From positions 61,148 to 125,147 of the forward strand of contig JAGNBF010000005.1 in NCBI GenBank assembly GCA_018004935.1: a stretch of 64,000 nt of DNA, in the 5' to 3' direction. The DNA is from Chloroflexota bacterium (GTDB lineage: Bacteria; Chloroflexota; Anaerolineae; Promineifilales; Promineifilaceae). The notes beneath the pieces were generated by a model. That model did no database searches and was not told the origin of the DNA. It saw nothing but the letters and a program-made list of their open reading frames with translations. How positions within the stretch are numbered: position 1 is the stretch's first letter; the number at the start of each line of letters is the position of its first letter. Made by a program: the position numbers and the translations under genes. Below are positions 51,605 to 64,000 of this stretch, one piece after another.

Positions 51605-53767
51605 ATGCATTCTCCTACCCTGACCACTCCCTCCATCCAGCCCGCGGCCGCAGAGCCAAATCTATGGCTGGCCGACATCCTGCCCGGTCTGCAACGGCTG
51701 GATGCTTTGCTGGCAGAGGCGATGAATGGGGTTCCCCACGCGGCCGCAGACCCGTTCCGTGGCCTCTACATCAATCCATCCGAACCCGCCCAACTCCTCA
51801 CCCAACCCCCTGGCGCACCCCGCCTCTACAGCAACGGCCATATCCCACCCCTGGCGTTCCCGCCAGACCCCAGCCGCCTGCAATGGTTACAAACCGCCTA
51901 CCAGTTGACCCCCTTCGAGATGGATGTTCTCCTGTTGGCTCTGGCCCCGGAGCTAGACCGGCGTTACGAACGGCTCTACGCCTATTTGCATGATCACGTT
52001 GGGCGGCGTTGGCCGACGGTTGACCTGGCCCTGCATTTGTTGTGCCCGGACGCGGCCGCGCGCCTCACCCAGCGCACCCTGTTCGACCCCAACGCCCCGC
52101 TCATCCGTCACCACCTCATCCACCTCGTCCCCGAAAACGACCCCCGCCCCTCGTCCCTGCTAGGCCATTTTTTGCAGTTGGACGAACAAATCACCCGCTT
52201 CCTGCTGGGGCAGGACAGCCCGGATAGCCGTCTGGCCTCTTTTTGCCAGCTTTATCCACCAACTCCGGCCCAGCCGGTGCTCGATGAACAGACCCAACAG
52301 GCCCTCACCCGGCTGATGGCTGATGCCCGAACGACCGGCTCTCCGGTGCGCCTTTACCTGCACGGCCCGGCGGTAGCGGGCAAACAACAGAGTGCCCTGA
52401 ACGCGGCCGCGGCCCTCAACCTGCCCCTCATCACCGCCAACCTCACCCGTCTGCCTGCCACCCTGACCCTACCCGATGCGCTTACCCTGATTTTCCGCTA
52501 TGCCTGGTTTTATCAGACCATTCCTTACCTGGAAGGGTGGGAAACGCTGGCCCCTGCCTCACGCGCCCTGCTCCAGGAACACCTGCACCCGGCTCATCCC
52601 CTGCCCGTTGTCCTGCTGGCCGGAAGCGAACCCTGGTCACCTCTGCCCGACGCACCGGACGAGGTGTTGAGCGTCTCCTTCACTTTGCCCGATTACCCTC
52701 AGCGGCGGCGTTACTGGCAGGCGCAACTTCAGACGCAAGATCACACTCTCAATGACAATGACCCGGACATATTGGCGGAGCGGTTCCGGCTGTGGCCGAA
52801 TCAAATAGCGCAGACGGTCAACGCGGCCGCGCATCAGGCCCATTGGCAGGTCGTCACCAACCAACGCCCGACTCCCCCCCGCCTCACCGTGGACGATTGT
52901 TTTCGCTCGGCCCGCACCCAGTCCGGCCATGATTTGCACAACCTGGCGACCAAAATCGAACCGCTCTACACCTGGGATGACATTGTTCTGCCCGCGGCCG
53001 CACGTGACCAACTGCACGAAATTTGCCAGCAACTCGTCCACCGGCACACCGTTTTAGGCCAATGGGGGTTCGGGCAACGGCTCTCGCTGGGCAAAGGGGT
53101 CAACGCTCTGTTCGCAGGCCCCAGCGGCACAGGCAAAACCATGGCCGCCGACATCATCGCCAACGAATTGGGGCTGGAGCTATACAAAATTGATTTGTCC
53201 GGCATCGTCAGCAAATACATCGGCGAAACGGAGAAAAACCTGGAACGCATCTTCCGCTCTGCCGAAAACGCCAACGCCATTCTCTTCTTTGATGAAGCTG
53301 ACGCCCTGTTTGGCAAACGGAGCGAGGTGCGTGACTCCCATGACCGGTACGCCAACATCGAAATTTCCTATCTCCTGCAAAAAATCGAAGCCTACGACGG
53401 GTTGGCTATCCTGGCCTCGAATTTGCGCCAGAATCTGGATGAAGCGTTTATCCGACGATTGGCTTTCACCGTGCATTTCCCCTTTCCTGATGAAACCAAC
53501 CGCCGCCAGATTTGGGCGACCATCTGGCCGGATGAGGCCCCCCTGGCCGATGATGTAGACCTGGACAGCCTGGCGCGCCAGTTCAAATTGAGTGGCGGCA
53601 ACATCAAAAATGTGGCTCTCGCGGCCGCGTATCTGGCCGCCACCGACCACCAACCCATCGGCATGGCCCACCTGTTGCGGGCGGTGCGCCGCGAGTATCA
53701 GAAGATGGGCAAACGGATGGGCGACGAGGACGTAACCCTCGCGGCCGCAGGGAGACACCATGGCTAA
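51605..53767 (+). CDS. eCIS AAA+ ATPase (Afp15/Pvc15-like)
   Basis: A 720-residue AAA+ ATPase of the type that accompanies contractile injection systems and is thought to act in assembly or release of the particle. The N-terminal 440 residues are a helical region with several GCGGCCGC-encoded Ala runs (51644, 51740, 52052, 52403, 52823, 52994). The AAA core has Walker A AGPSGTGKT at about 504-512, Walker B ILFFDEADALFGKRSEV near 558-570, and sensor/arginine motifs ILASNLRQNLDEAFIRRL. The C-terminal lid ends GRHHG. CDC48-like substrate handling is inferred. Its stop overlaps the next start (ATG 53760) by 8 bases, with AGGGAG before it, so the two are translationally coupled. Confidence 0.9.
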   Translation: MHSPTLTTPSIQPAAAEPNLWLADILPGLQRLDALLAEAMNGVPHAAADPFRGLYINPSEPAQLLTQPPGAPRLYSNGHIPPLAFPPDPSRLQWLQTAYQLTPFEMDVLLLALAPELDRRYERLYAYLHDHVGRRWPTVDLALHLLCPDAAARLTQRTLFDPNAPLIRHHLIHLVPENDPRPSSLLGHFLQLDEQITRFLLGQDSPDSRLASFCQLYPPTPAQPVLDEQTQQALTRLMADARTTGSPVRLYLHGPAVAGKQQSALNAAAALNLPLITANLTRLPATLTLPDALTLIFRYAWFYQTIPYLEGWETLAPASRALLQEHLHPAHPLPVVLLAGSEPWSPLPDAPDEVLSVSFTLPDYPQRRRYWQAQLQTQDHTLNDNDPDILAERFRLWPNQIAQTVNAAAHQAHWQVVTNQRPTPPRLTVDDCFRSARTQSGHDLHNLATKIEPLYTWDDIVLPAAARDQLHEICQQLVHRHTVLGQWGFGQRLSLGKGVNALFAGPSGTGKTMAADIIANELGLELYKIDLSGIVSKYIGETEKNLERIFRSAENANAILFFDEADALFGKRSEVRDSHDRYANIEISYLLQKIEAYDGLAILASNLRQNLDEAFIRRLAFTVHFPFPDETNRRQIWATIWPDEAPLADDVDLDSLARQFKLSGGNIKNVALAAAYLAATDHQPIGMAHLLRAVRREYQKMGKRMGDEDVTLAAAGRHHG

Positions 53768-55820
53768 AACCGACCCCAAGCTCACCTTGCGCTCGGATGC
53801 TACCACGGGCGCGTCTCTTGAGCCGCCCATCGTCCGGCCCGATGACGCCCCCCATCACCTGCTCGACCTGCACACCCAGGCGGGCAATCAGGCGGTCAGC
53901 CAACTGGTTCAGCCGGGCGCGGCCCCCACCATCCAGCGGCAATGCAAAGCGTGTAGCGACAGCGGCCACCAATGCGCCCAGTGCCAAAAAGAAGAACAGC
54001 AGACCATCCAGCGGCAGGCTAACAGCCCGGGCGCGGCCGCTCCTTCAGCCATTCCCGCCCCGGTGCAGGCGGCCTTAGCCCAATCCGGCGGGCAGACGTT
54101 ACCAGGCACAGTACGCGCTGGCCTGGAGCAACAGTTCAACCGGGATTTCGGCCAGGTGCGAGTTCACACCGATCCCACAGCGGCGCAGGCGGCCCAGGCC
54201 ATTGACGCGGCCGCGTTCACCTACGGCCAATCCATCTGGTTTGGCTCCGGTCGTTTCCAGCCCGAAACCAAAGCCGGACTCCACCTGTTGAGCCATGAAC
54301 TGGCCCATACTGTCCAACAAGGGGCGCACCCTGGCCCGGTGCAACCCCAATCCCTCACCGTCGGCAAGGTGAATGATCCGCTGGAAGCGGCCGCAGATCA
54401 CGCCGCCAACGCCATTCTCAATCATTCATCTGTCTCACTGGGAAGCACATCCGGGCCGGTTCTGCGCCGTGCCCCCAGAGTGTCGCCGGTTAAGGACAAA
54501 CCTAACGAACGGTATGTTGACCTGGACAATGGTGACCGCTACCGGGTGATTCGCAACATCAAGATGATCCCGCACCAGGAAGAGTACCCCAGCGGTGGCG
54601 AACCGAGGTTACGCGGCCGCGTGGACAAAAACAACATCTGGCTCCAGGTAGATTGGTGCAAAAACAGTACCCGTGGCGAAATCAAAGTCGGGTTAGACCT
54701 ACCTTCCCAGGCCCAAACCCTCTTGCGGCAATGGGGTCAGGCCATCTTGCAAGGACAAGACCCGGTTGAGGTCCTGAAAAACGCCGAACTCACCCCCTTT
54801 GCCAGCGTCGTCATCGCCCAATCGCAACGGTTCACCCTCAGTGCCGAAGCCAAAACCACCATCGAACCGGCCACGGGGGATGTCAAAGGCGGCTCCCTGG
54901 CGGCGAAGCTGAAACTGCCCAATCTGGATCTATCGCTAGAAGGCCAGGTAAACGCACCCCCTACCGGCAGTAATCGCCAGGGGCCAGATTGGCAGGTGAC
55001 GGGCAATGTTGTGATTCCCCTGGAAAAACCAGGAAAGGTGAAATGCCCCACCAAAGTTCGCACCATTCTGGTGCCGCAAATCAGCTACCAATGTGTCAAA
55101 GAAGTCGAGACCGGCACGCGCATGGTTCCCCACATCAGCACCGCCTTTCTCTACTTCAAGTACGCAGAAGACATTTTTGAGAACAATGTCAACGCACCCG
55201 GTGGCGGCCGCAACCCCGCCGAAATGACCAAACTCGAACAACTCCTCACCGATGGCTACCAGGTCACGGGCATCCGGGGTTTTGCCTCACCCGAAGGGCC
55301 ACAAAAAGCCAAAGGTAACTTCATCGGCAACATCGCCCTGTCCCAAAAACGGGCCGACGCCACCAAAGCCTGGATCGAACAGAAGTGTAAACCGTCCCTA
55401 TTGCAGATGCGGCAAAAACCGTTGAACTGTTTTGCCGGTGATTTACTCCCCAGTGGCGAGGGGGAGTTGTACACCAAGACCAAACTGGTGCAAGGGGAAG
55501 AAAAGGAAGTGGAAGGGCGGCCGCAGGCCGAGCACGCCGTCGAACAGTTCAAAACCGACCCGGACGAAGAACGTCACCGCACCCCAGAAACTGAAGAGGA
55601 GCTGAAAAAACGGGAAAAATCGCCCGAAAAGCAGGCCAAAGATGTCGTTTATCCCCTGTTGCGCCGGGCCGAAATCACTCTGCGCAAAGAGGTCGAAACC
55701 CCATACCGGGAAGCCGTCCCCGCCGAACGGCAAAAGACAGAAGAATGCACCACCGAAGTCATCAAAGCCGTCGAAGCCGATTTTGAAAAGAGCGAGGCTC
55801 TGGCACCCTTAAAACCCTAA
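53760..55820 (+). CDS. eCIS-associated DUF4157 protein with OmpA-like domain
   Basis: A 686-residue protein. The first part has a short Cys pattern (QRQCKACSDSGHQCAQCQKE), a Pro/Ala linker and the DUF4157 domain at about 115-190. The latter has NRDFGQVRVHTDPTAAQAAQ, the zinc-metallopeptidase-like HELAH in LHLLSHELAHTVQQG, and VNDPLEAAADHAAN. DUF4157 proteins are frequent cargo or effectors of eCIS, and this HExxH suggests self-processing or substrate cleavage. Residues about 260-480 form an unassigned beta region. An OmpA/MotB-like segment lies at about 498-545 (IRGFASPEGPQKAKGNF, NIALSQKRADATKAWIEQ) that could bind peptidoglycan. The rest is Glu/Lys-rich. It overlaps the ATPase gene by 8 bases. 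I regard it as an effector or shell component, unproven. Confidence 0.82.
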   Translation: MAKTDPKLTLRSDATTGASLEPPIVRPDDAPHHLLDLHTQAGNQAVSQLVQPGAAPTIQRQCKACSDSGHQCAQCQKEEQQTIQRQANSPGAAAPSAIPAPVQAALAQSGGQTLPGTVRAGLEQQFNRDFGQVRVHTDPTAAQAAQAIDAAAFTYGQSIWFGSGRFQPETKAGLHLLSHELAHTVQQGAHPGPVQPQSLTVGKVNDPLEAAADHAANAILNHSSVSLGSTSGPVLRRAPRVSPVKDKPNERYVDLDNGDRYRVIRNIKMIPHQEEYPSGGEPRLRGRVDKNNIWLQVDWCKNSTRGEIKVGLDLPSQAQTLLRQWGQAILQGQDPVEVLKNAELTPFASVVIAQSQRFTLSAEAKTTIEPATGDVKGGSLAAKLKLPNLDLSLEGQVNAPPTGSNRQGPDWQVTGNVVIPLEKPGKVKCPTKVRTILVPQISYQCVKEVETGTRMVPHISTAFLYFKYAEDIFENNVNAPGGGRNPAEMTKLEQLLTDGYQVTGIRGFASPEGPQKAKGNFIGNIALSQKRADATKAWIEQKCKPSLLQMRQKPLNCFAGDLLPSGEGELYTKTKLVQGEEKEVEGRPQAEHAVEQFKTDPDEERHRTPETEEELKKREKSPEKQAKDVVYPLLRRAEITLRKEVETPYREAVPAERQKTEECTTEVIKAVEADFEKSEALAPLKP

Positions 55821-56206
55821 CCACCTCATTCCACGCTCTTGTCGTTTAAAAAATTAATCAGGTAATGGAATCCCCCCCACCCCTAACCCCGCCCCCAGGG
55901 GCGGGGAACTTTTCTAAGGAGCATTTTTCGGGGCGAATGCCCCGAAAAATGCCCCATTGGAATTCCCCCCTTCCCTCGGGAATCGGCAGGGGGGATGGGT
56001 CAATGAAGGCGTTACCCGATTAAAAATTTAATGAACAACTGCGTGGAATGAACACCCGGGGCGCTCTGCGCCCTGGACGCAGAGCGTCCAGACTGACATA
56101 CCAACGGAGACCGTTGGTATGAGTGGAAAAAGTAACACAGCGACAAAGCGACAAAGCGACACAGCGACAAAGCGAGTTCCTACGAGTTCCCAGGTCTTTC
56201 TCAACC
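55821..56206. repeat. Hairpin repeat (copy H) and octamer minisatellite before the Pvc16-like gene
   Basis: Copy H at 55871-55999: left arm CCCCGCCCCCAGGGGCGGGG, 14-bp core stem with 4-base loop at 55921-55952, right arm TTCCCTCGGGAATCGGCAGG. Further on, GCGACAAA/GCGACACA octamers (about 56140-56172) run into GAGTTCCTACGAGTTCC just before the start codon at 56207. Confidence 0.82.
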
Positions 56207-57133
56207 ATGATTGACTACCTCGACAACATTCTCCGCGATCTGCTCCTCGGCCGCGTCATCGGCATCACCGACGAGTCCCAGGTGCGCTTCCAGCCCCCCG
56301 ACGACGACTGGCGCACCTACGTCGCCAACCTGACCGTCGGCGGCGAACCAGCCAACGCCCTGAATGTTTACCTGCTGGAACTGCGCGAGAATCGCCGCCT
56401 GCGCTCCAACGAACGATTCGCCACGGTCAGCAACGGCCAGGTACAACACGATCCCGCCCCGGCTCGCGTAGATTGCCATTACCTCATTACCGCCTGGAGT
56501 CCGGCTACCGTTACCGCCGCCATCGAACCCACCCTGGACGAACATATTTTGCTTTACCAGACCACCGCCGTCCTCATGCAAAACGCCCCGGTCAACCCAT
56601 CACGCATCTACCCGCCCGGTTCAGTCGCTCTGGGCAACGTACCCGAACTCATTCGGGATAGCGATTTACCGACCCAGGTGCTCCCCGGCGAAGGGTTCGC
56701 CAAACTGGCCGAATTTTGGGGCACGATGGGGATCAGCCAACGCTGGAAACCGGGTATCCACCTCATCGTCACCATTCCCGTGCTCCTGCTCACCGAATTT
56801 GCCGGGCCAATGGTCACCACCCGCATCACCGAATACCGCCGCACCGGCCAACCGGAAACAGCGGACATCTGGATTCAAATTGGTGGGCATGTGCTAGACA
56901 GTACGGTGAACCCTGCCGTGCCGGTGGCCGGAGCCTGGGTGCAATTACAAACCACCACCGGCGATCCCTTACAAACCACCACCACCAACACCCTGGGCCA
57001 GTTCACCTTCCTACGGTTACAGGCGGGGCCATACCAGCTCCTCTGGCGGGCCGAGGGGCATCCTCTCCCCCCCACCCCCCGCCCCATAGACGTTCCCTCA
57101 CCGACAGGGGAGTATGATTTGAGGCTTTTATGA
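56207..57133 (+). CDS. eCIS cap/terminator protein, Pvc16-type (DUF4255)
   Basis: 308 residues. The N-terminal DUF4255 domain (1-190: YLDNILRDLLLGRVIGITDE, VNLTVGGEPANALNVYLLEL-like text, YLITAWSPATVTAAIEPTLD) matches Pvc16/Afp16 caps that end the tube and sheath. A long middle part is followed by a carboxypeptidase-regulatory-like beta domain (GAWVQLQTTTGDPLQTTTTN, GQFTFLRLQAGPYQLLWRAE). The start at 56207 lies right after the minisatellite, with only a weak ribosome site (CCCAGG). An in-frame ATG at 56123 would translate the minisatellite and is rejected. The sheath gene follows after a long minisatellite. Confidence 0.88.
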   Translation: MIDYLDNILRDLLLGRVIGITDESQVRFQPPDDDWRTYVANLTVGGEPANALNVYLLELRENRRLRSNERFATVSNGQVQHDPAPARVDCHYLITAWSPATVTAAIEPTLDEHILLYQTTAVLMQNAPVNPSRIYPPGSVALGNVPELIRDSDLPTQVLPGEGFAKLAEFWGTMGISQRWKPGIHLIVTIPVLLLTEFAGPMVTTRITEYRRTGQPETADIWIQIGGHVLDSTVNPAVPVAGAWVQLQTTTGDPLQTTTTNTLGQFTFLRLQAGPYQLLWRAEGHPLPPTPRPIDVPSPTGEYDLRLL

Positions 57134-57136
57134 GGT

Positions 57137-57332
57137 GAAGTGTATTCGTGTATTCGTATATTCGTATATTGGTATATTGGTATATTGGAATTAATACACT
57201 AATACACTAATACACTAATACACCAATACACCAACACACCAACACACCAACACACCAACACACCAATACACCAACACACCAATACACCAACACACCAATA
57301 CACCAATACACCAATACACCAATACACCAATA
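57137..57332. repeat. Octamer minisatellite between cap and sheath genes
   Basis: Eight-base units TATTCGTA/TATTGGTA (57145-57190), then ACTAATAC turning into ACCAATAC and ACCAACAC, about 16 copies to 57332. A CAAGGAGG ribosome site for the sheath gene follows. Confidence 0.92.
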
Positions 57333-57358
57333 ACTTTTCCAGGTGCAAGGAGGTTTTC

Positions 57359-59293
57359 ATGGCCGTACAAGTTTCTTATCCGGGCGTGTATATTGAGGAA
57401 TTTACGCCGGGTGCGCCCATCCAGGGGGTGGGAACCAGCACCGCCGCCTTTTTGGGGCCAGGCGGCCGGGGGCCGCTCAACGAACCCACCAAAGTTACCA
57501 GTTGGGATGCGTTTAAGCGGAGTTTTGGTGAAAACCCGCTGGATGGGCATTACCTCTGGTATGCGGTGCGGGGTTTTTTTGAGAATGGGGGGCTGGTCTG
57601 TTATGTGACCCGTGTCAGCAATGCCGCCAACGCACAACTGATGCTGGATGACCGCTCAGGTGGCCCCGAACCGACGATTCGCCTCTGGGCGCGGGAGCCG
57701 GGCAACCTGTCGCCAGACATTCAGATCACCATCGCCGATGCACAGGCGGTGACAGGCGCAACCCTGTTTCGGCCTACGGCGACGGTGAGTAGTGCCAGCG
57801 GTACGGCCATCACGACTAACAACGCGGCCGCGGCCGCACGCTTCCGCTCCGGTGACACCATTACCGTTAATGGCACCAATACAACAGAAGTGGCCCGTAT
57901 CGAAGGGGCAGTTATCCGGGTAACGACCCCGCTGGCAGTGAACAACGGGGATACTTTACGGCTGGCGAGTCTGGTGGCAGGGAATACCACGTTCAGGGTG
58001 GGAAACGCGGCCGCGCTCCGTTCCGGTTCGGTCATTCGTCTCACCCAGGACGCCACCACCGAAGAGGCCACCGTCAAAAGTGTCATCGTCGAGGTACTTT
58101 CCCCTGCCGAAACCACCTACCGGGTCACGCTCACCGCTGGTCTGACCAATGGCTATGATCTGGCGGGCGCGGCCGCGGCTGTCACTCTGGAATCGTTTGA
58201 GTTCAACCTGACCGCCGCCCAGGGCACGACCACCAAAACCTACAGCAACCTCAGTATACGCCCGGAGCATCCCAACTATTACCGGACGCTTATCAACAAT
58301 GATCCTACCGGCCTGATCTATGCCGCACCTGCCGAACCGCCCAACGTCGCGGCCGCGCCAGATAATCGCCCGGCGGTAATCACCAACCAGGCTTTAACCG
58401 GCGGCGTCAACGACAACCCGGCTACGCTCACTCCCACCGACTACAGCAACGCCCTCACCCGCCTGGAAGCGGTAGACGATGTGAACTTCATCGCCATCCC
58501 GGACAGCACCGACCCCAGCGTACAACTGGCGGTCATCGCTCACTGCGAACTCATGCAAGACCGGTTTGCCATCATAGATTCGCGGCGGGGTGCGCCTCTC
58601 TTCGGCACGGATAGTGTGGAATTGCATCGCGCCAGCCTGGACTCAGCTCGTGGTTATGCCGCCCTCTACTACCCCTGGTTATACGTCTTCCCGGCCACGG
58701 GCACCGACCCGATTCTGGTTCCGCCATCGGGGCATGTCGCCGGGATTTATGCCCGCACCGATAACAACCGGGGTGTCCACAAAGCTCCCGCCGGGAACGA
58801 GGCCACGGTCAATGGTGTCCTCGGTGTGGCGCAAACGATGAGCGACATTGATCAGGGCCAGCTTAATTTGCAGGGGATCAACGTGATTCGCGTGTTCAAA
58901 ACCGGCGGCCGCGCCGTCGTTTGGGGCGCACGCACCACCGCTACCGACCTGAACTGGCAATATGTGAACATCCGCCGCCTCTTCCTCTTCCTGGAAGAAT
59001 CCATCGAAGAAGGGATTCGTTGGGCGGTGTTTGAGCCGAACAACCTGCAACTATGGCAAAAACTCAAGCGCACCATCACCGAATTCCTGCTGAGGGTATG
59101 GCGCGATGGGGCCTTGTTTGGGGCCACCCCGGACGAAGCGTTTTACGTCCGCATTGACGAAGCCCTCAACCCATTTTCCGAGCAGGCTCTAGGCCGCCTC
59201 AACATCGAAATCGGTGTCCGCCCCACCTACCCCGCCGAGTTTATCATCGTGCGGATTGGCATCTGGCCGGGGGGATCAGAGGTGAGTGAGTAG
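57359..59293 (+). CDS. eCIS contractile sheath protein
   Basis: A 644-residue sheath subunit that forms the contracting outer cylinder of the particle. The N-terminus has YPGVYIEEFTPGAPIQGVGT, STAAFLGPGGRGPLNEPTKV and SWDAFKRSFGEN, the core sheath start of Afp2/phage sheath proteins. An insertion of about 200 residues (roughly 100-295) is made of two or three similar beta modules with FRSGDTITVNGTNTTEVARI and LRSGSVIRLTQDATTEEATV, probably an exposed domain, absent in short sheaths. The C-terminal half has AVDDVNFIAIPD, ALYYPWLYVFPATGTDP, PPSGHVAGIYARTDNNRGVH and INVIRVFKTGGRAVVWGART, typical of the sheath. Six GCGGCCGC sites, most within the insertion. CAAGGAGGTTTTC before the ATG is a strong ribosome site. 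Confidence 0.95.
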   Translation: MAVQVSYPGVYIEEFTPGAPIQGVGTSTAAFLGPGGRGPLNEPTKVTSWDAFKRSFGENPLDGHYLWYAVRGFFENGGLVCYVTRVSNAANAQLMLDDRSGGPEPTIRLWAREPGNLSPDIQITIADAQAVTGATLFRPTATVSSASGTAITTNNAAAAARFRSGDTITVNGTNTTEVARIEGAVIRVTTPLAVNNGDTLRLASLVAGNTTFRVGNAAALRSGSVIRLTQDATTEEATVKSVIVEVLSPAETTYRVTLTAGLTNGYDLAGAAAAVTLESFEFNLTAAQGTTTKTYSNLSIRPEHPNYYRTLINNDPTGLIYAAPAEPPNVAAAPDNRPAVITNQALTGGVNDNPATLTPTDYSNALTRLEAVDDVNFIAIPDSTDPSVQLAVIAHCELMQDRFAIIDSRRGAPLFGTDSVELHRASLDSARGYAALYYPWLYVFPATGTDPILVPPSGHVAGIYARTDNNRGVHKAPAGNEATVNGVLGVAQTMSDIDQGQLNLQGINVIRVFKTGGRAVVWGARTTATDLNWQYVNIRRLFLFLEESIEEGIRWAVFEPNNLQLWQKLKRTITEFLLRVWRDGALFGATPDEAFYVRIDEALNPFSEQALGRLNIEIGVRPTYPAEFIIVRIGIWPGGSEVSE

Positions 59294-59364: not shown

Positions 59365-59799
59365 ATGGCAACCGGACAAGTCACGGACCCTTTTGGTAAT
59401 TTCAACTTTCTGGTCGAGATTGACGGCATTACCCGGGCCGCCTTCCAGGAAGTGAGTGGGTTTGACTCCACGATTGATGTCATCGAGCACCGCGAAGGGG
59501 GTGAGAACACGACCCTGCGCAAATTGCCCGGTATGACCAAATACAGCAACCTCACCCTCAAGTGGGGTATTACAGATGATATGGATTTGTACACCTGGCA
59601 TCGCCAGATTGTGCAGGGGCAGATTGAGCGGCGCAACGGCTCGATTGTTCTGCTGGATCGGGGCGGGCAAGAGGTGGCGCGTTGGAATTTCTTCCGCGCC
59701 TGGCCCACCAAATACGACGGCCCCGACCTCAACGCCGAAGGCAATGATGTGGCGATTGAGACGTTGGAACTGGCGCATGAAGGGGTGGAAAGGGTGTAG
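59365..59799 (+). CDS. eCIS inner tube protein (gp19/Afp1-like)
   Basis: 144 residues, the normal size for the tube subunit that stacks as hexamers inside the sheath. FGNFNFLVEIDGITRAAFQE, VSGFDSTIDVIEHREGGENT, TTLRKLPGMTKYSNLTLKWG and WHRQIVQGQIERRNGSIVLL are the T4-like gp19 signature. The gene order sheath then tube matches other eCIS. AGGAGA precedes the ATG. No GCGGCCGC. Confidence 0.95.
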   Translation: MATGQVTDPFGNFNFLVEIDGITRAAFQEVSGFDSTIDVIEHREGGENTTLRKLPGMTKYSNLTLKWGITDDMDLYTWHRQIVQGQIERRNGSIVLLDRGGQEVARWNFFRAWPTKYDGPDLNAEGNDVAIETLELAHEGVERV

Positions 59800-59885
59800 A
59801 AGCAAGCCGCTAGCCGTTGGCCGTTAGCTGTTGGCCGTTAGCGAAAAAGCCAGCGGCCAGTAGCTAACTGCCAGCGGCCCTTATT
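59800..59885. repeat. Short minisatellite between tube and chaperone genes
   Basis: TAGCCGTTGGCCGT / TAGCTGTTGGCCGT units against CAGCGGCCAGTAGCTAAC; a GGAGAG ribosome site follows. Confidence 0.7.
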
Positions 59886-59895
59886 GGAGAGTGAC

Positions 59896-60261
59896 ATGTT
59901 TCAGACGGAATTTGAGTTTACGTTGCCATGTGGCTTTTTGGATGAGGATGGCTCTTTGCACCGGGATGGGGTCATGCGCCGGGCGACGGCGGCGGATGAG
60001 ATTTTGCCGCTGAAGGATCCCCGGGTGCAGAAGAATCCGGCCTACCTGGTCATCATCTTGCTGTCGCGGGTGGTGACACGGCTGGGTTCGGTGGCGCAGA
60101 TGAACCCGAAGGTGATTGAAAACCTGTATGCAACCGATCTGGCGTATCTGCAAACGTTGTACAACCAGATTAACCAGTTGGGGAATGGGCATCAGGCGGT
60201 GATGTGCCCGCAGTGCCAGCACACTTTTGAGATGGAGCCGCTGGCTCTGGGGGGGTATTAG
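59896..60261 (+). CDS. eCIS tail-assembly chaperone-like protein, 0-frame product
   Basis: 121 residues from ATG 59896 (GGAGAG before it; a TTG at 59884 is rejected). FQTEFEFTLPCGFLDEDGSL, RRATAADEILPLKDPRVQKN, ILLSRVVTRLGSV and NPKVIENLYATDLAYLQTLY match the phage tail-assembly type protein found after the tube gene in eCIS; a CxxC (MCPQCQHTF) lies near the end. The last codons are CTG GGG GGG TAT TAG. The DUF6760-like frame (60252-60413) has no start codon and overlaps at the slippery G run, so two products are expected: this one and a -1 frameshift fusion of 172 residues. Confidence 0.88.
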   Translation: MFQTEFEFTLPCGFLDEDGSLHRDGVMRRATAADEILPLKDPRVQKNPAYLVIILLSRVVTRLGSVAQMNPKVIENLYATDLAYLQTLYNQINQLGNGHQAVMCPQCQHTFEMEPLALGGY

Positions 60262-60296
60262 GCTACCCCCTCGACCAACTGCAAGAGGAGGTAGCC
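60249..60296 (+). promoter_or_regulatory. Probable -1 programmed ribosomal frameshift signal
   Basis: The slippery heptamer G GGG GGG (60249-60255) is in 0-frame register, with P-site GGG (60250-60252) and A-site GGG (60253-60255). A 5-base spacer (TATTA, 60256-60260) follows. Then a stem GGCTACC / GGTAGCC (60261-60267 with 60290-60296) continues, after a C/A mismatch, as CCTC / GAGG, with a 12-base loop. The 0-frame TAG (60259-60261) sits at the stem base. Spacing and form are those of classical -1 sites. Confidence 0.8.
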
Positions 60297-60413
60297 TTCA
60301 TCGCTTACCACTTTCACTGGTCGCATGATGAGGTGATGAGTCTGGAGCATCGTGACCGGCGGCAGTGGGTGCAGGAAATTTCGGGCATTAATCAGCGCAT
60401 GAATGGGGATTAG
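60252..60413 (+). CDS. DUF6760-like 50-residue frame, expressed by frameshift
   Basis: From 60261 the frame reads GYPLDQLQEEVAFIAYHFHW and ends ISGINQRMNGD (TAG 60411-60413). That is the DUF6760-type small protein expected after the tail-assembly gene in eCIS clusters. The frame has no ATG, GTG or TTG between its upstream stop (60228) and the conserved start, so it cannot begin by itself. Reading -1 from the G7 run gives GVLGYPLDQ, joining it to the preceding protein like the gpG-gpGT tail chaperones of phage lambda. Expression is inferred from sequence. Confidence 0.75.
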   Translation, partial: GVLGYPLDQLQEEVAFIAYHFHWSHDEVMSLEHRDRRQWVQEISGINQRMNGD

Positions 60414-60452: not shown

Positions 60453-60634
60453 GGGCATGGTTCAGAAAGTGGAAGATGTCCTTTACAAATTAGCCATAAA
60501 CTGTCATTCCGAGTGGAGTCTTCGGAACGAGGAATCTCTCTATTGGCTCGCTAAAAAGATTCCTCGGCAAACCTCGGAATGACAATTTGGCACTGAATTT
60601 GTAAACGTGAATGGGTCGTTTTTGAACCATACCC
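60453..60634. repeat. GGGCATGGTTCA-ended MITE-like element
   Basis: 182 bases with ends GGGCATGGTTCA and TGAACCATACCC (11 of 12 match). The interior has TGTCATTCCGAG / CTCGGAATGACA and GAGGAATCT / AGATTCCTC inverted repeats. It lies between the frameshift unit and the gene at 60692. Confidence 0.8.
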
Positions 60635-60691: not shown

Positions 60692-61471
60692 ATGAGTCAG
60701 GTACGGAATCCGGTTATTTTGAGGACAGTGATCAAGGGGCAACGGCCCGCGGCCGCAATCCGGCCTCACCCCCTCGCGCCTATCACCTTCACCATGACTC
60801 TGGTGCAGACGATCCTGGCCCGTTATCGCCCGTTCATCGCCCACTGGCCCGGCCTCAGCCCCATCTACCGGCAGGAACAACCAGCCGGGCTGGCGCAAAC
60901 GACTCATCATTACCGGCAGAATATTTTTGCCCCACACCTGAAACTGACCCTGGTCGCGGCCGCGTCTGCCACTCCCGCCCCTTCCCATCCGGCCACACCC
61001 TTCACCTGGCAGATGTTGCGGCCGCCCATCGCCGCCCCCGCCAGCGAACAGCTTGTACGCCGCCTGATCCAACGGGAACAGATGGAAACCCAGGCCTTCA
61101 GCGAAACCAGCCACCGCCTGATGCTCCGCAATCAGCGCCTTGAGACGGTCACACGACAAAGCCGCTCTCTGGTTCAAGAGGCTTCCGCCGGGGCCGTCAT
61201 CTCGCCCACAGCGGTACTCCCGGCTCCGGCACTGGCCCGGCCCGTGGCTCGGGTGGTGCATCACCCACCCGCACCGCCAGAAACAACCGAAGCGGAACCG
61301 AACCCCGCGGCCGCGCCGTCTCGTTGGCAACCATTTACGGAAGTAGATTCGCGGCCGCAACCTCAGCCCGCCTTAACCGAAACCGTTGACGTAAACCGCC
61401 TGACCGAACAAATCATGCACAACATTGATCGCCGCCTCAACGCCTACCGCGAACGTACTGGGAGAATGTAA
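60692..61471 (+). CDS. Ala/Pro-rich eCIS protein of unknown function
   Basis: 259 residues. The N-terminal part is basic and Pro-rich (RPAAAIRPHPLAPITF). The middle has a short helical region (LVRRLIQREQMETQAFSETS), a Pro/Ala linker rich in GCGGCCGC-encoded Ala (60749, 60956, 61018, 61307, 61351), and the end reads VDVNRLTEQIMHNIDRRLNA and YRERTGRM. A C-terminal helix of this type is usual in small eCIS proteins encoded between the tube and LysM genes. No enzyme motif. TGGAGTAGAA precedes the ATG. It may link tube and baseplate or be cargo; not decidable from sequence. Confidence 0.65.
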   Translation: MSQVRNPVILRTVIKGQRPAAAIRPHPLAPITFTMTLVQTILARYRPFIAHWPGLSPIYRQEQPAGLAQTTHHYRQNIFAPHLKLTLVAAASATPAPSHPATPFTWQMLRPPIAAPASEQLVRRLIQREQMETQAFSETSHRLMLRNQRLETVTRQSRSLVQEASAGAVISPTAVLPAPALARPVARVVHHPPAPPETTEAEPNPAAAPSRWQPFTEVDSRPQPQPALTETVDVNRLTEQIMHNIDRRLNAYRERTGRM

Positions 61472-61583: not shown

Positions 61584-62258
61584 ATGGCTTTAGAAAAAGC
61601 CCTCATCACCAACACCATCAACGGCCAACGCATCCCGGTTCTGTTTAACCCGGAAGAGTACAGCCTCAGCCGGGCCAATAACTTTGCCCAAATGGCCATT
61701 CCCGGACGGCGCGGCCCTCTGCTCCAGTTTGTCAACGGCAACATGCAGACGCTGGAGATGGAATTATTGGTGGATAGTTACGAGGCGAATAGCGGCCGCA
61801 ACCAGGCCGGTGACGATGTGCGGCTTTTGACCCGCCAGATCACCGACCTGATGAACATTGATCCCACCACCCACGCGCCGCCGGTTTTGCTCTTCACCTG
61901 GGGATCATTGGCCTTCACCTGTGTTCTGGCCCGCGCCAGCCAGCGTTTTATCATGTTTCTGCCCGATGGCACGCCTGTCCGTGCCCGGTTTCAGGTGAGT
62001 TTTAACGAATTTATCAACGTGGAATTGGAAGCGAAGGAGACGAAGCGGGAAACAGCCGATTACAGCCATCTCCATGTGGTGCGTGAAGGGGAGACGATCA
62101 GTGGCATCGCGGCCGCGGTCTACCAAAACCCCACCCTCTGGCGGCCCATTGCCATTGCCAACGACCTAGACGACCCCCGCACCCTGCCCCTCGGCTCCCA
62201 ACTCCTCATCCCCCAACTCCCCTTCCGCGACCCGGAGACAGGCGAAGTAATGCAATAA
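61584..62258 (+). CDS. eCIS baseplate protein with LysM domain (Afp7-like)
   Basis: A 224-residue protein. ALITNTINGQRIPVLFNPEE and RANNFAQMAIPGRRGPLLQF are the CIS-tube/gpU-like N-terminal domain of the LysM proteins in contractile systems. The C-terminal LysM is HLHVVREGETISGIAAAVYQ plus WRPIAIANDLDDPRTLPLGS. It joins tube and baseplate, and may bind peptidoglycan. CAGGAG before the ATG supports the start. GCGGCCGC at 61792 and 62109. Confidence 0.92.
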   Translation: MALEKALITNTINGQRIPVLFNPEEYSLSRANNFAQMAIPGRRGPLLQFVNGNMQTLEMELLVDSYEANSGRNQAGDDVRLLTRQITDLMNIDPTTHAPPVLLFTWGSLAFTCVLARASQRFIMFLPDGTPVRARFQVSFNEFINVELEAKETKRETADYSHLHVVREGETISGIAAAVYQNPTLWRPIAIANDLDDPRTLPLGSQLLIPQLPFRDPETGEVMQ

Positions 62259-62416
62259 CGGATGGATTTAATAATTAATGGGTGAATTCGTGAATTGGTG
62301 AATGATTAACGAAGAGGTATTCCCACCTCATTAACAATTCAACAGTTCGACAATTCAACAATTAATTATTCTCTTCATCCCCATCCGTGTTCCTTCCATC
62401 CGTGTTTTTTACGACT
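62259..62416. repeat. Repeat-filled gap before the spike gene
   Basis: An imperfect palindrome of the GGGTGT-element interior (GAATTCGTGAATTGGTGAAT against ATTCAACAGTTCGACAATTC) followed by CCATCCGTGTT-type repeats (62388-62408). No Shine-Dalgarno is seen before the ATG at 62417. Confidence 0.7.
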
Positions 62417-63616
62417 ATGACCATTAACCCACAGTACGCACCCGAATTCTCCCTCGCCATCAACGGCCAGCCCCTTCCCTCGGCTGTGCGTTCAGCCGTG
62501 ACCAGCGTCCGCTACGAAGACGGCCTGAACGCTTCCGACCGGGTCGAAGTCGGCCTGGCCAACCCCGATTTGCGCTGGCTCCAGACCCACATTCGCGGCC
62601 TGGGTTTCCGCCCCTTCCCCACCGCCGTCCGTGTGGGGCCAATCGGTGGCCTCAGCGCCGTGCCCGAAGGCACTTTCGACATTGACAACAAGCTGGCTCT
62701 CTCCCTCGGCTACGCCCCCGATCCCCTCGAAGAAGTGTTCAAAGGGGAAGTAACCGGCTTGCAAGTCAGTTTTCCCAGTGGCGGCATGCCCACGATGACC
62801 CTGGTCGCCCATGATTACCTTAACCGGCTTAACCAGGGCAGTTATGCCCGGGGCTTCGGTTTTCTGCCCGATGCCATCGTCGCCGCCATTTTGGGGGCGG
62901 AAAACCTGCTCATCCCGCTGATCGATCCCGTCATTGTCGCCGGGTCCACGGCCCTGGCGGTGCTGGATGCCATCTTCAAAGGCACAGGCGTCAAACAAGG
63001 GGGCAAAGACAAGGGAGAGAGCGACTTTGAATTGCTCAAACGCATTGCCGAACGGTACGACGCCGATTTTTGGGTCGAAGGCGACACCCTTTACCTGGCC
63101 CGGTTCATTCCCAAAGAATACTCCCCGCGCCTGACCCTCACCTGGGGCGAATCCCTGATTGATTTCTCCCCACGCATGAGCACGGTGGGACAGGTGTTGG
63201 GTGTGTCGGCCAAATTTACCCTGCGCGAGATTCCGCTCAGTTTCCTGGTGGCGGTCTTTTGGGATTTTGACCGGGAAAGTTTGGGGATCAAGGTTGTACC
63301 CGGCGAGGCCGTATCGTTCACCAAGAGCCTGCTCGGTGATGTACTCACCATCATTGACCAGCCCATCACCAACCCGGCCGATATTGCCGGAGCCGCCCTG
63401 ATGATCACTCGGATGCTTCGCCAAAAAATCAACAACCGCGTCACCGGCAGTGGTTCAGCCGTGGGCAATGCCAAAATTCGCGCCGGGTCGATGATTCGGC
63501 TGGAAGGTTTAGGGGTGGATTTCAGTGGGGATTATCGTGTCACCAGTGCCAGCCACACCCTCGACAGCGGCGGCTGGCGCACCTCTTTCCAGGTGCAAAA
63601 GGAGATTCTGCCGTGA
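62417..63616 (+). CDS. eCIS spike/hub protein (gpD/VgrG/Afp8-like)
   Basis: 399 residues of the phage late control gene D family. The gp27-like part has FSLAINGQPLPSAVRSAVTS, SVRYEDGLNASDRVEVGLAN and LEEVFKGEVTGLQVSFPSGG. Then HDYLNRLNQGSYARGF and the hub helix region (ESDFELLKRIAERYDADFWV) follow. A beta-rich end (IRLEGLGVDFSGDYRVTSAS, HTLDSGGWRTSFQVQKEI) completes it. It caps the tube at the baseplate and carries the tip. The ATG at 62417 was preferred because the family pattern begins there; an in-frame start ten codons earlier lies in repeat sequence. The remaining baseplate, tape-measure and fibre genes are outside the window. Confidence 0.93.
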   Translation: MTINPQYAPEFSLAINGQPLPSAVRSAVTSVRYEDGLNASDRVEVGLANPDLRWLQTHIRGLGFRPFPTAVRVGPIGGLSAVPEGTFDIDNKLALSLGYAPDPLEEVFKGEVTGLQVSFPSGGMPTMTLVAHDYLNRLNQGSYARGFGFLPDAIVAAILGAENLLIPLIDPVIVAGSTALAVLDAIFKGTGVKQGGKDKGESDFELLKRIAERYDADFWVEGDTLYLARFIPKEYSPRLTLTWGESLIDFSPRMSTVGQVLGVSAKFTLREIPLSFLVAVFWDFDRESLGIKVVPGEAVSFTKSLLGDVLTIIDQPITNPADIAGAALMITRMLRQKINNRVTGSGSAVGNAKIRAGSMIRLEGLGVDFSGDYRVTSASHTLDSGGWRTSFQVQKEILP

Positions 63617-64000
63617 TGATCCGCAGATTAACGTCGATTTTCGCAGATTGTTTTAATCCGCGTTCATCCATGTTCCTTCCTATCCGTGGCTATTTTCGTA
63701 GGAGTTTCCTATGAGCGGCCACACACCAAGAGGGATGAAAATTTGTAGGACGATTTGGTAAATCGTCCGGGCGATTTGCCAAATCGCCCTACATTTTCGC
63801 AGGAGTTCCCCATGGGCTTTGAGCGCACCAAGAGGAATGAAAATTTGTAGGACGATTTTGTAAATCGTCCACTGGGCGATTTGCCAAATCGCCCTACATT
63901 TTCGCAGGAGTTCCCCATGGGCTTTGAGCGCACCAAGAGGAATGAAAATTTGTAGGACGATTTTGTAAATCGTCCACTGGGCGATTTGCCAAATCGCCCT
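63617..64000. repeat. Tandem array of 105-bp units at the window edge
   Basis: CAGATT/CCGTGTTC-type repeats (63620-63690) run into three units of about 105 bases of the type at 46357-46710 (TTTTCGCAGGAGTTCCCCAT, then GGACGATTTTGTAAATCGTC, then GGGCGATTTGCCAAATCG), starting about 63691, 63795 and 63900. The array continues past the edge. No gene was seen. Confidence 0.9.

Follow-up and report, generated by a model that had tools for sequence, protein, structure and literature searches.

How is a reading frame translated when it lies behind another gene, in a different phase and with no start codon of its own? The window, by which we mean the whole stretch of 64,000 nucleotides analyzed, raises this question at 59896-60413. 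Here a predicted tail-assembly chaperone ORF (59896..60261, + strand), recognized through its homologues and giving a short 0-frame product of 121 aa, runs into a 52-aa DUF6760 extension in the -1 frame (60255..60413, + strand). Judging from sequence, we consider it very probable that the two are joined by programmed -1 ribosomal frameshifting at this site.

To what kind of system do these frames belong? Upstream, all on the + strand, lie an AAA ATPase (51605..53767; PF00004, PF22977), an eCIS_core (DUF4157) protein (53760..55820; PF13699, E 2.6e-28), a Pvc16/Afp16-like cap (DUF4255; Pvc16_N; 56123..57133; PF14065, E 3.8e-21), a sheath (57359..59293; PF04984, PF17482) and, directly 5' of the chaperone, a gp19-type tube or tube adaptor protein (59365..59799; PF06841, E 3e-53), which also matches the CIS5-like TIGR02241 below cut-off. 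A CIS_tube-LysM (Afp7-like) protein (61584..62258; PF19266, E 7e-36) and a spike/hub protein (62387..63616; VgrG-related NF033848, E 2e-10, below cut-off; PHROG 52, E 2e-22) follow on the same strand, and gp25 and two baseplate-J proteins are encoded just past the window end. By its sheath, tube, AAA, Pvc16, eCIS_core, CIS_tube, gp25 and baseplate J proteins, the locus is an extracellular contractile injection system (eCIS). Such systems are studied and engineered as protein-delivery syringes; to our knowledge, little is known about the control of their tube assembly. Profile searches of the window identified no tape-measure gene beside the chaperone, and the 259-aa frame at 60692-61471, between DUF6760 and CIS_tube-LysM, has no convincing family or PDB match. 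Neither the chaperone nor DUF6760 matches any of 50,697 phage records (tblastn, E 0.01). The surrounding DNA holds several repeats: the tube-chaperone gap (59803-59881) is inverted-repeat-like, with weak and surely spurious microRNA matches below the gathering score; in the gap after DUF6760 (60505-60581) an imperfect inverted repeat, CATTCCGAG...CTCGGAATG, may represent a small repeat element; and translations with internal repetition suggest tandem repeats 5' of the sheath gene (57199-57360) and at the window end (63680-64000).

What does the junction look like? The chaperone ORF ends in CT[G GGG GGG]TAT TAG, placing a slippery heptamer at 60249..60255 (+ strand) in the X XXY YYZ register of a -1 shift. 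A 5-nt spacer (60256..60260, +) separates it from a stem-loop (60261..60296, +), and the 0-frame stop, TAG (60259..60261, +), overlaps the first stem base. The lower part of the stem pairs GGCTACC (60261-60267) with GGTAGCC (60290-60296) in seven pairs; a C60268.A60289 mismatch follows, then four pairs between CCTC (60269-60272) and GAGG (60285-60288), closed by a 12-nt loop. A computed fold adds a possible closing pair, A60260-U60297. The hairpin reaches -20.8 kcal/mol, with a z score of -4.61 against 200 dinucleotide shuffles, none of which was as good, and of -4.1 against synonymous recoding. From 60255 the -1 frame reads GTA TTA GGC TAC CCC... to a stop at 60411-60413, and its product scores 69.2 bits against PF20546 (E 3.1e-19; curated cut-off 27). 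No ATG, GTG or TTG occurs in the open stretch of this frame 5' of the domain. The predicted fusion is 172 aa long with the junction LALGG-VLGYPL. A sequence-only reading of this DNA had described the heptamer and its register, the spacer and 11-bp stem with one mismatch, the stop at the stem base and a family-like downstream frame lacking a start; all of these stand. No Rfam family matches the slip-hairpin site.

Is this arrangement peculiar to one genome? We sought PF20546 in six frames with stops read through, so that the search was unbiased for start codons. Matches were found in 38 of 400 genomes of the window's phylum (30 loci from these were analyzed), in 21 of 346 from the phylum of an Actinopolymorpha genome (20 of them scoring above the cut-off), 17 of 175 from that of a cyanobacterium, 6 of 349 from that of a Caballeronia genome (3 of them scoring above it), 6 of 148 from that of a Methanosarcina genome, 3 of 179 from that of a Paenibacillus genome and 1 of 149 from that of an Acidobacteria genome, the last being the centre genome itself. 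A pattern scan supplied 80 named loci of 582 relatives, and viral contigs supplied 10 loci. Removing four loci below the family cut-off (L148, L169, L170, L171) and 12 duplicates from 178 left 162, which are related to one another and not independent. A profile found the chaperone ORF in 160 of these (none was found in L133 and L142), a gp19-like tube lies upstream in 157/162, and a sheath is present in 143/162.

DUF6760 is in the -1 phase relative to the chaperone in 159/160 loci (156 scored automatically, 3 by inspection). These include L162 and L166, where a tandem second chaperone copy adjoins DUF6760, and L151, whose chaperone frame is interrupted upstream; there the piece next to DUF6760 is in -1, and both slip site and domain seem undamaged. 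Only L144, in phase 0, departs from the rule. By itself the phase counts for little, because ordinary ATGA overlaps place the second frame in -1 as well. An in-register slip site is present in 143/160 of these eCIS-like loci, more than expected by chance; L144 falls among the 17 loci without one because the tally sought the partner ORF in the -1 frame only. The G-run heptamers are GGGGGAA (42 loci), GGGGGGG (34), GGGGGAG (25) and GGGGGGA (13), and the others TTTTTTG (22), TTTTTTA (3), GGGAAAG (2) and GGGAAAT (2). The commonest group is thus GGGGGAR, on which A-site re-pairing is only imperfect. The run of seven Gs taken as the slip site in the sequence-only reading holds for the window; across the loci the site varies among G7, GGGGGGA, GGGGGAR, TTTTTTR and GGGAAAN, and a few have an ordinary start instead. 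The G run precedes the first position of the DUF6760 profile by 21 nt in 105/109 loci and by 24 nt in 4/109.

Could DUF6760 instead be translated from a start of its own? Under translational coupling, a junction start codon would let ribosomes reinitiate after finishing the chaperone, with the G run serving as a weak Shine-Dalgarno sequence, and DUF6760 would be a separate small protein. A junction start, as we use the term, is an ATG, GTG or TTG codon that lies in frame with DUF6760 at -18 to -9 relative to the first position of its profile. An independent start in relatives had been named beforehand as evidence against frameshifting; it is absent in 109/143 slip loci, the window included. 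Coupling can draw on the 34/143 where it is present, yet 33 of these 34 sit on the 0-frame TGA (NTGA), and codons so placed need no other explanation because any 0-frame TGA produces an NTG codon in -1. A junction start accompanied by a Shine-Dalgarno match of at least 4 nt occurs in only 3/139 slip loci versus 8/17 loci without a slip site (p 5e-7), and over a wider stretch (-60 to +3) no start codon is found in 87/137 slip loci. Public annotation also shows separate DUF6760 genes, as in plasmid records, where Rhodococcus has an internal start; the annotated start in Nostoc, however, is ATA. Together with a covarying hairpin that coupling leaves unexplained (see below), these counts make it quite unlikely as the mechanism at the window site.

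Some loci nevertheless have apparent starts of their own, L061, L065 and L009 among them, which speak for coupling there. A junction start is present in 13 of the 17 loci without a recognized slip site, and the two features tend to be mutually exclusive (Fisher p 2.9e-5); separate translation is likely in such loci. Loci of this kind include L008, L009, L045, L061, L065, L140, L143, L146 and L147, which are apparent switches between frameshifting and separate translation. From the genome scan we sorted 79 distinct named loci by phylum, as assigned by us; a slip site without a junction start occurs in 10/11 loci of Chloroflexota, 11/11 of Cyanobacteriota, 6/6 of Acidobacteriota, 2/2 of Planctomycetota, 2/2 of Deltaproteobacteria/Desulfobacterota, 4/5 of Archaea, 25/31 of Bacillota, 3/8 of Pseudomonadota, 0/2 of Actinomycetota and 0/1 of Nitrospirota. 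The sequence CTGGGGGAATCGTGACG, in which GGGGGAA is combined with a GTGA overlap, was read in three copies on Streptomyces plasmids and in one from Streptantibioticus, so both routes are possible in them. On two viral contigs (L119, L120), the protein before a DUF6760-like domain is chaperone-like but quite different, and the junction carries an ATG.

Is the hairpin conserved? The region is itself coding, in the -1 frame, so the appropriate null is a set of synonymous recodings that follow local codon usage. Against it, the hairpins of 109 G-run loci have a mean z of -3.32, with p<0.05 in 89%, compared with -0.62, -0.72 and -0.82 (12-17% at p<0.05) for three control stretches of the same genes. 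For covariation we aligned those of the 109 fold-tested loci whose G run sits exactly at -21, 100 distinct sequences in all; the structure alignments did not include loci obtained by genome search. Slip site, spacer and stem are gap-free across these 100. Over 84 distinct sequences the stem is 91.2% paired and contains 40 double-changed cells versus 15.6 +/- 3.2 in shuffled alignments (0/500 as many), although related sequences may exceed shuffles without any structure; slid structures give 2-16 such cells. Two of the five measures of covariation stand out less: 29/500 shuffles reach the observed 5 pairs that show a double change, and 20/500 reach the 15 further pair types. The outermost pair occurs as GC, AU, UA, CG, GU and UG and is unpaired in 20/84. 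RNAalifold assigns almost no covariation energy (0.05 and -0.1 kcal/mol), and 16 further loci form a different 8-pair stem at the same spacing with no covariation. In the TTTTTT class no downstream structure signal was detected (z -0.17, 25 loci tested). A strong Shine-Dalgarno-like GGAGGT lies in the 3' arm of the window hairpin (60287-60292), inside the coding frame, and the 3' arm carries it in 89/109 G-run loci.

Might the frames be joined in the mRNA instead? Transcriptional slippage on the G7 run would yield mRNAs with altered numbers of G that fuse the two frames. A run of seven identical bases could slip, and transcriptional slippage serves a type III secretion system according to the available part of PMC5009743. 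Against this, the heptamer holds only five Gs in the 67/143 loci with GGGGGAR, and slippage needs no codon register, whereas the aligned loci keep both register and stem spacing constant. We regard it as very improbable. There is scarcely any chance that a single ORF was split by sequencing error or decay, with the G run mis-assembled. Seven single-ORF chaperone-DUF6760 proteins do occur among the best 120 matches listed, four of them clean-looking; the other three show further frame errors by our reading. The split into -1 frames, however, is seen throughout all but one of the 160 loci, including non-homopolymer variants, and a 97% identical relative of 121 aa (P0003) is present on 4 contigs. 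Moreover, GGG encodes the slip-codon glycine in 121/125 cases (all 162 loci), compared with a mean GGG share of 0.19 among glycine codons in long ORFs of the same loci, so an error in the G run, a concern of the sequence-only reading, is unlikely as a general cause. Finally, that DUF6760 starts at a rare codon (GTA, TTA, ATA or ATC) in its own frame is hardly credible despite the ATA annotated in Nostoc sp. UHCC 0926, as no single codon is conserved (GTA TTA, ATC GTA, GTC CTA, ATT GTA and others occur).

Frameshifting thus remains the favored reading; which known system does it resemble? The tail of phage lambda is not contractile. Its gpG/gpGT pair, in which a -1 frameshift makes a minority long chaperone (as described in the available part of PMC5009743), had been cited as the precedent and stands as one, its -1 shift and minority long form resembling those predicted for the window. 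In PMC3711429, experiments on an HK97-like chaperone cluster put the yield of two of its genes at 6% and 7%. A better precedent is the contractile phage P2, whose gpE/gpE+E' chaperone gene (PF10109, PF06528) likewise directly follows the tube gene, and whose E+E' is an annotated -1 frameshift product with the slip heptamer TTTTTTG, also found in Paenibacillus eCIS. DUF6760 aligns with P2 E' at hhalign probabilities of 91 and, for the window's own DUF6760 against P2-like E', 94 (E 1.3e-7); crossed controls give 0.05-0.2. By this profile comparison DUF6760 is a remote homologue of the E' extension and, E' being made by a -1 shift, the system looks like the eCIS counterpart of P2 E/E+E'. The two also differ. 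The eCIS chaperone half shows no relation to gpE by hhalign (probability 0.3); in the G-run class the slip site is followed, after 5 nt, by a covarying hairpin as an extra element; and the next gene in P2 is the tape measure, whereas none was identified next door in the eCIS window.

The chaperone fold matches Mu gp41/FS-gp41 (Foldseek E 1.8e-3), and weak PF23746 similarity appears in 7/41 eCIS chaperone relatives; the chaperone alignment comprised 41 sequences chosen from 159. Mu shifts by -2, while the window extension lies in -1, unlike the Mu-type -2 (+1) arrangement. Seven viral fold matches have E 0.001 or better, two of them to proteins named as T4-like baseplate hub assembly proteins and one to a protein named as a baseplate protein. 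T4-like phages reportedly were suggested, in a 2022 paper, to use a mechanism other than frameshifting. The AF2 model of DUF6760 is a three-helix structure (pLDDT 93), and the slip site lies in the disordered C-terminus of the chaperone (residues 112-121, pLDDT under 50). No PDB chain matches the chaperone or DUF6760 at E up to 1, which fits parts missing from finished particles and also fits solved systems that lack them.

How would such a switch work? As tail-assembly biology suggests, ribosomes decoding CTG GGG GGG would be held by the hairpin; glycine tRNAs would re-pair one base back and translation would continue through GTA TTA GGC TAC into DUF6760, making a minority chaperone-DUF6760 fusion beside the short chaperone. 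In the eCIS, the short product would correspond to lambda gpG and P2 gpE, and the fusion to gpGT and gpE+E'. The part common to both would bind a tape measure or hub partner, to which the three-helix extension would deliver tube subunits; these binding partners are guesses, given that no tape-measure gene was identified beside the chaperone. A fixed short:long ratio would set correct tube assembly, and both products would leave before the particle is complete. By analogy with phages, a role for this ratio in assembly is likely. More broadly, we lean toward the view that the slippery-run element, mostly with its hairpin, is an ancient control part, shared almost universally by the bacterial and archaeal eCIS that bear DUF6760, which outlived the loss of the phage lifestyle and sets the short:long ratio governing tube assembly, with an ordinary start in its place only in a few side lineages.

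What is new here? Frameshifted tail chaperones as a kind are already known. New as far as the open literature searched shows are a probable -1 frameshift chaperone in an eCIS, the assignment of DUF6760 as an eCIS E'-like extension and a G-run-plus-hairpin design common to bacteria and archaea, along with the apparent switches to an ordinary start. No paper in the open full-text literature searched mentions "DUF6760". Nor does that literature describe frameshifting in eCIS, in agreement with the sequence-only reading, although it mostly excludes subscription papers and absence from it is not proof. In their available parts, PMC5009743, PMC13222765, PMC5411513, PMC8894136, PMC10066040, PMC8213781, PMC10598620, PMC8718954, PMC3711429, PMC10274946, PMC8894135, PMC8528098 and PMC9022992 do not describe frameshifting of eCIS assembly genes. 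Public annotation treats the chaperone and DUF6760 frames as unrelated genes; if our reading is true, the long product could be lost unnoticed when such clusters are recoded or expressed in another host, and a headless machine would allow testing whether the short:long chaperone ratio sets assembly, as in phages.

The number of chaperone copies also varies. Three cyanobacterial loci (L159, L162, L166) carry two in tandem, the divergent second leading into DUF6760 in -1, and double chaperones of about 250 aa also occur as single proteins (P0125, P0128).
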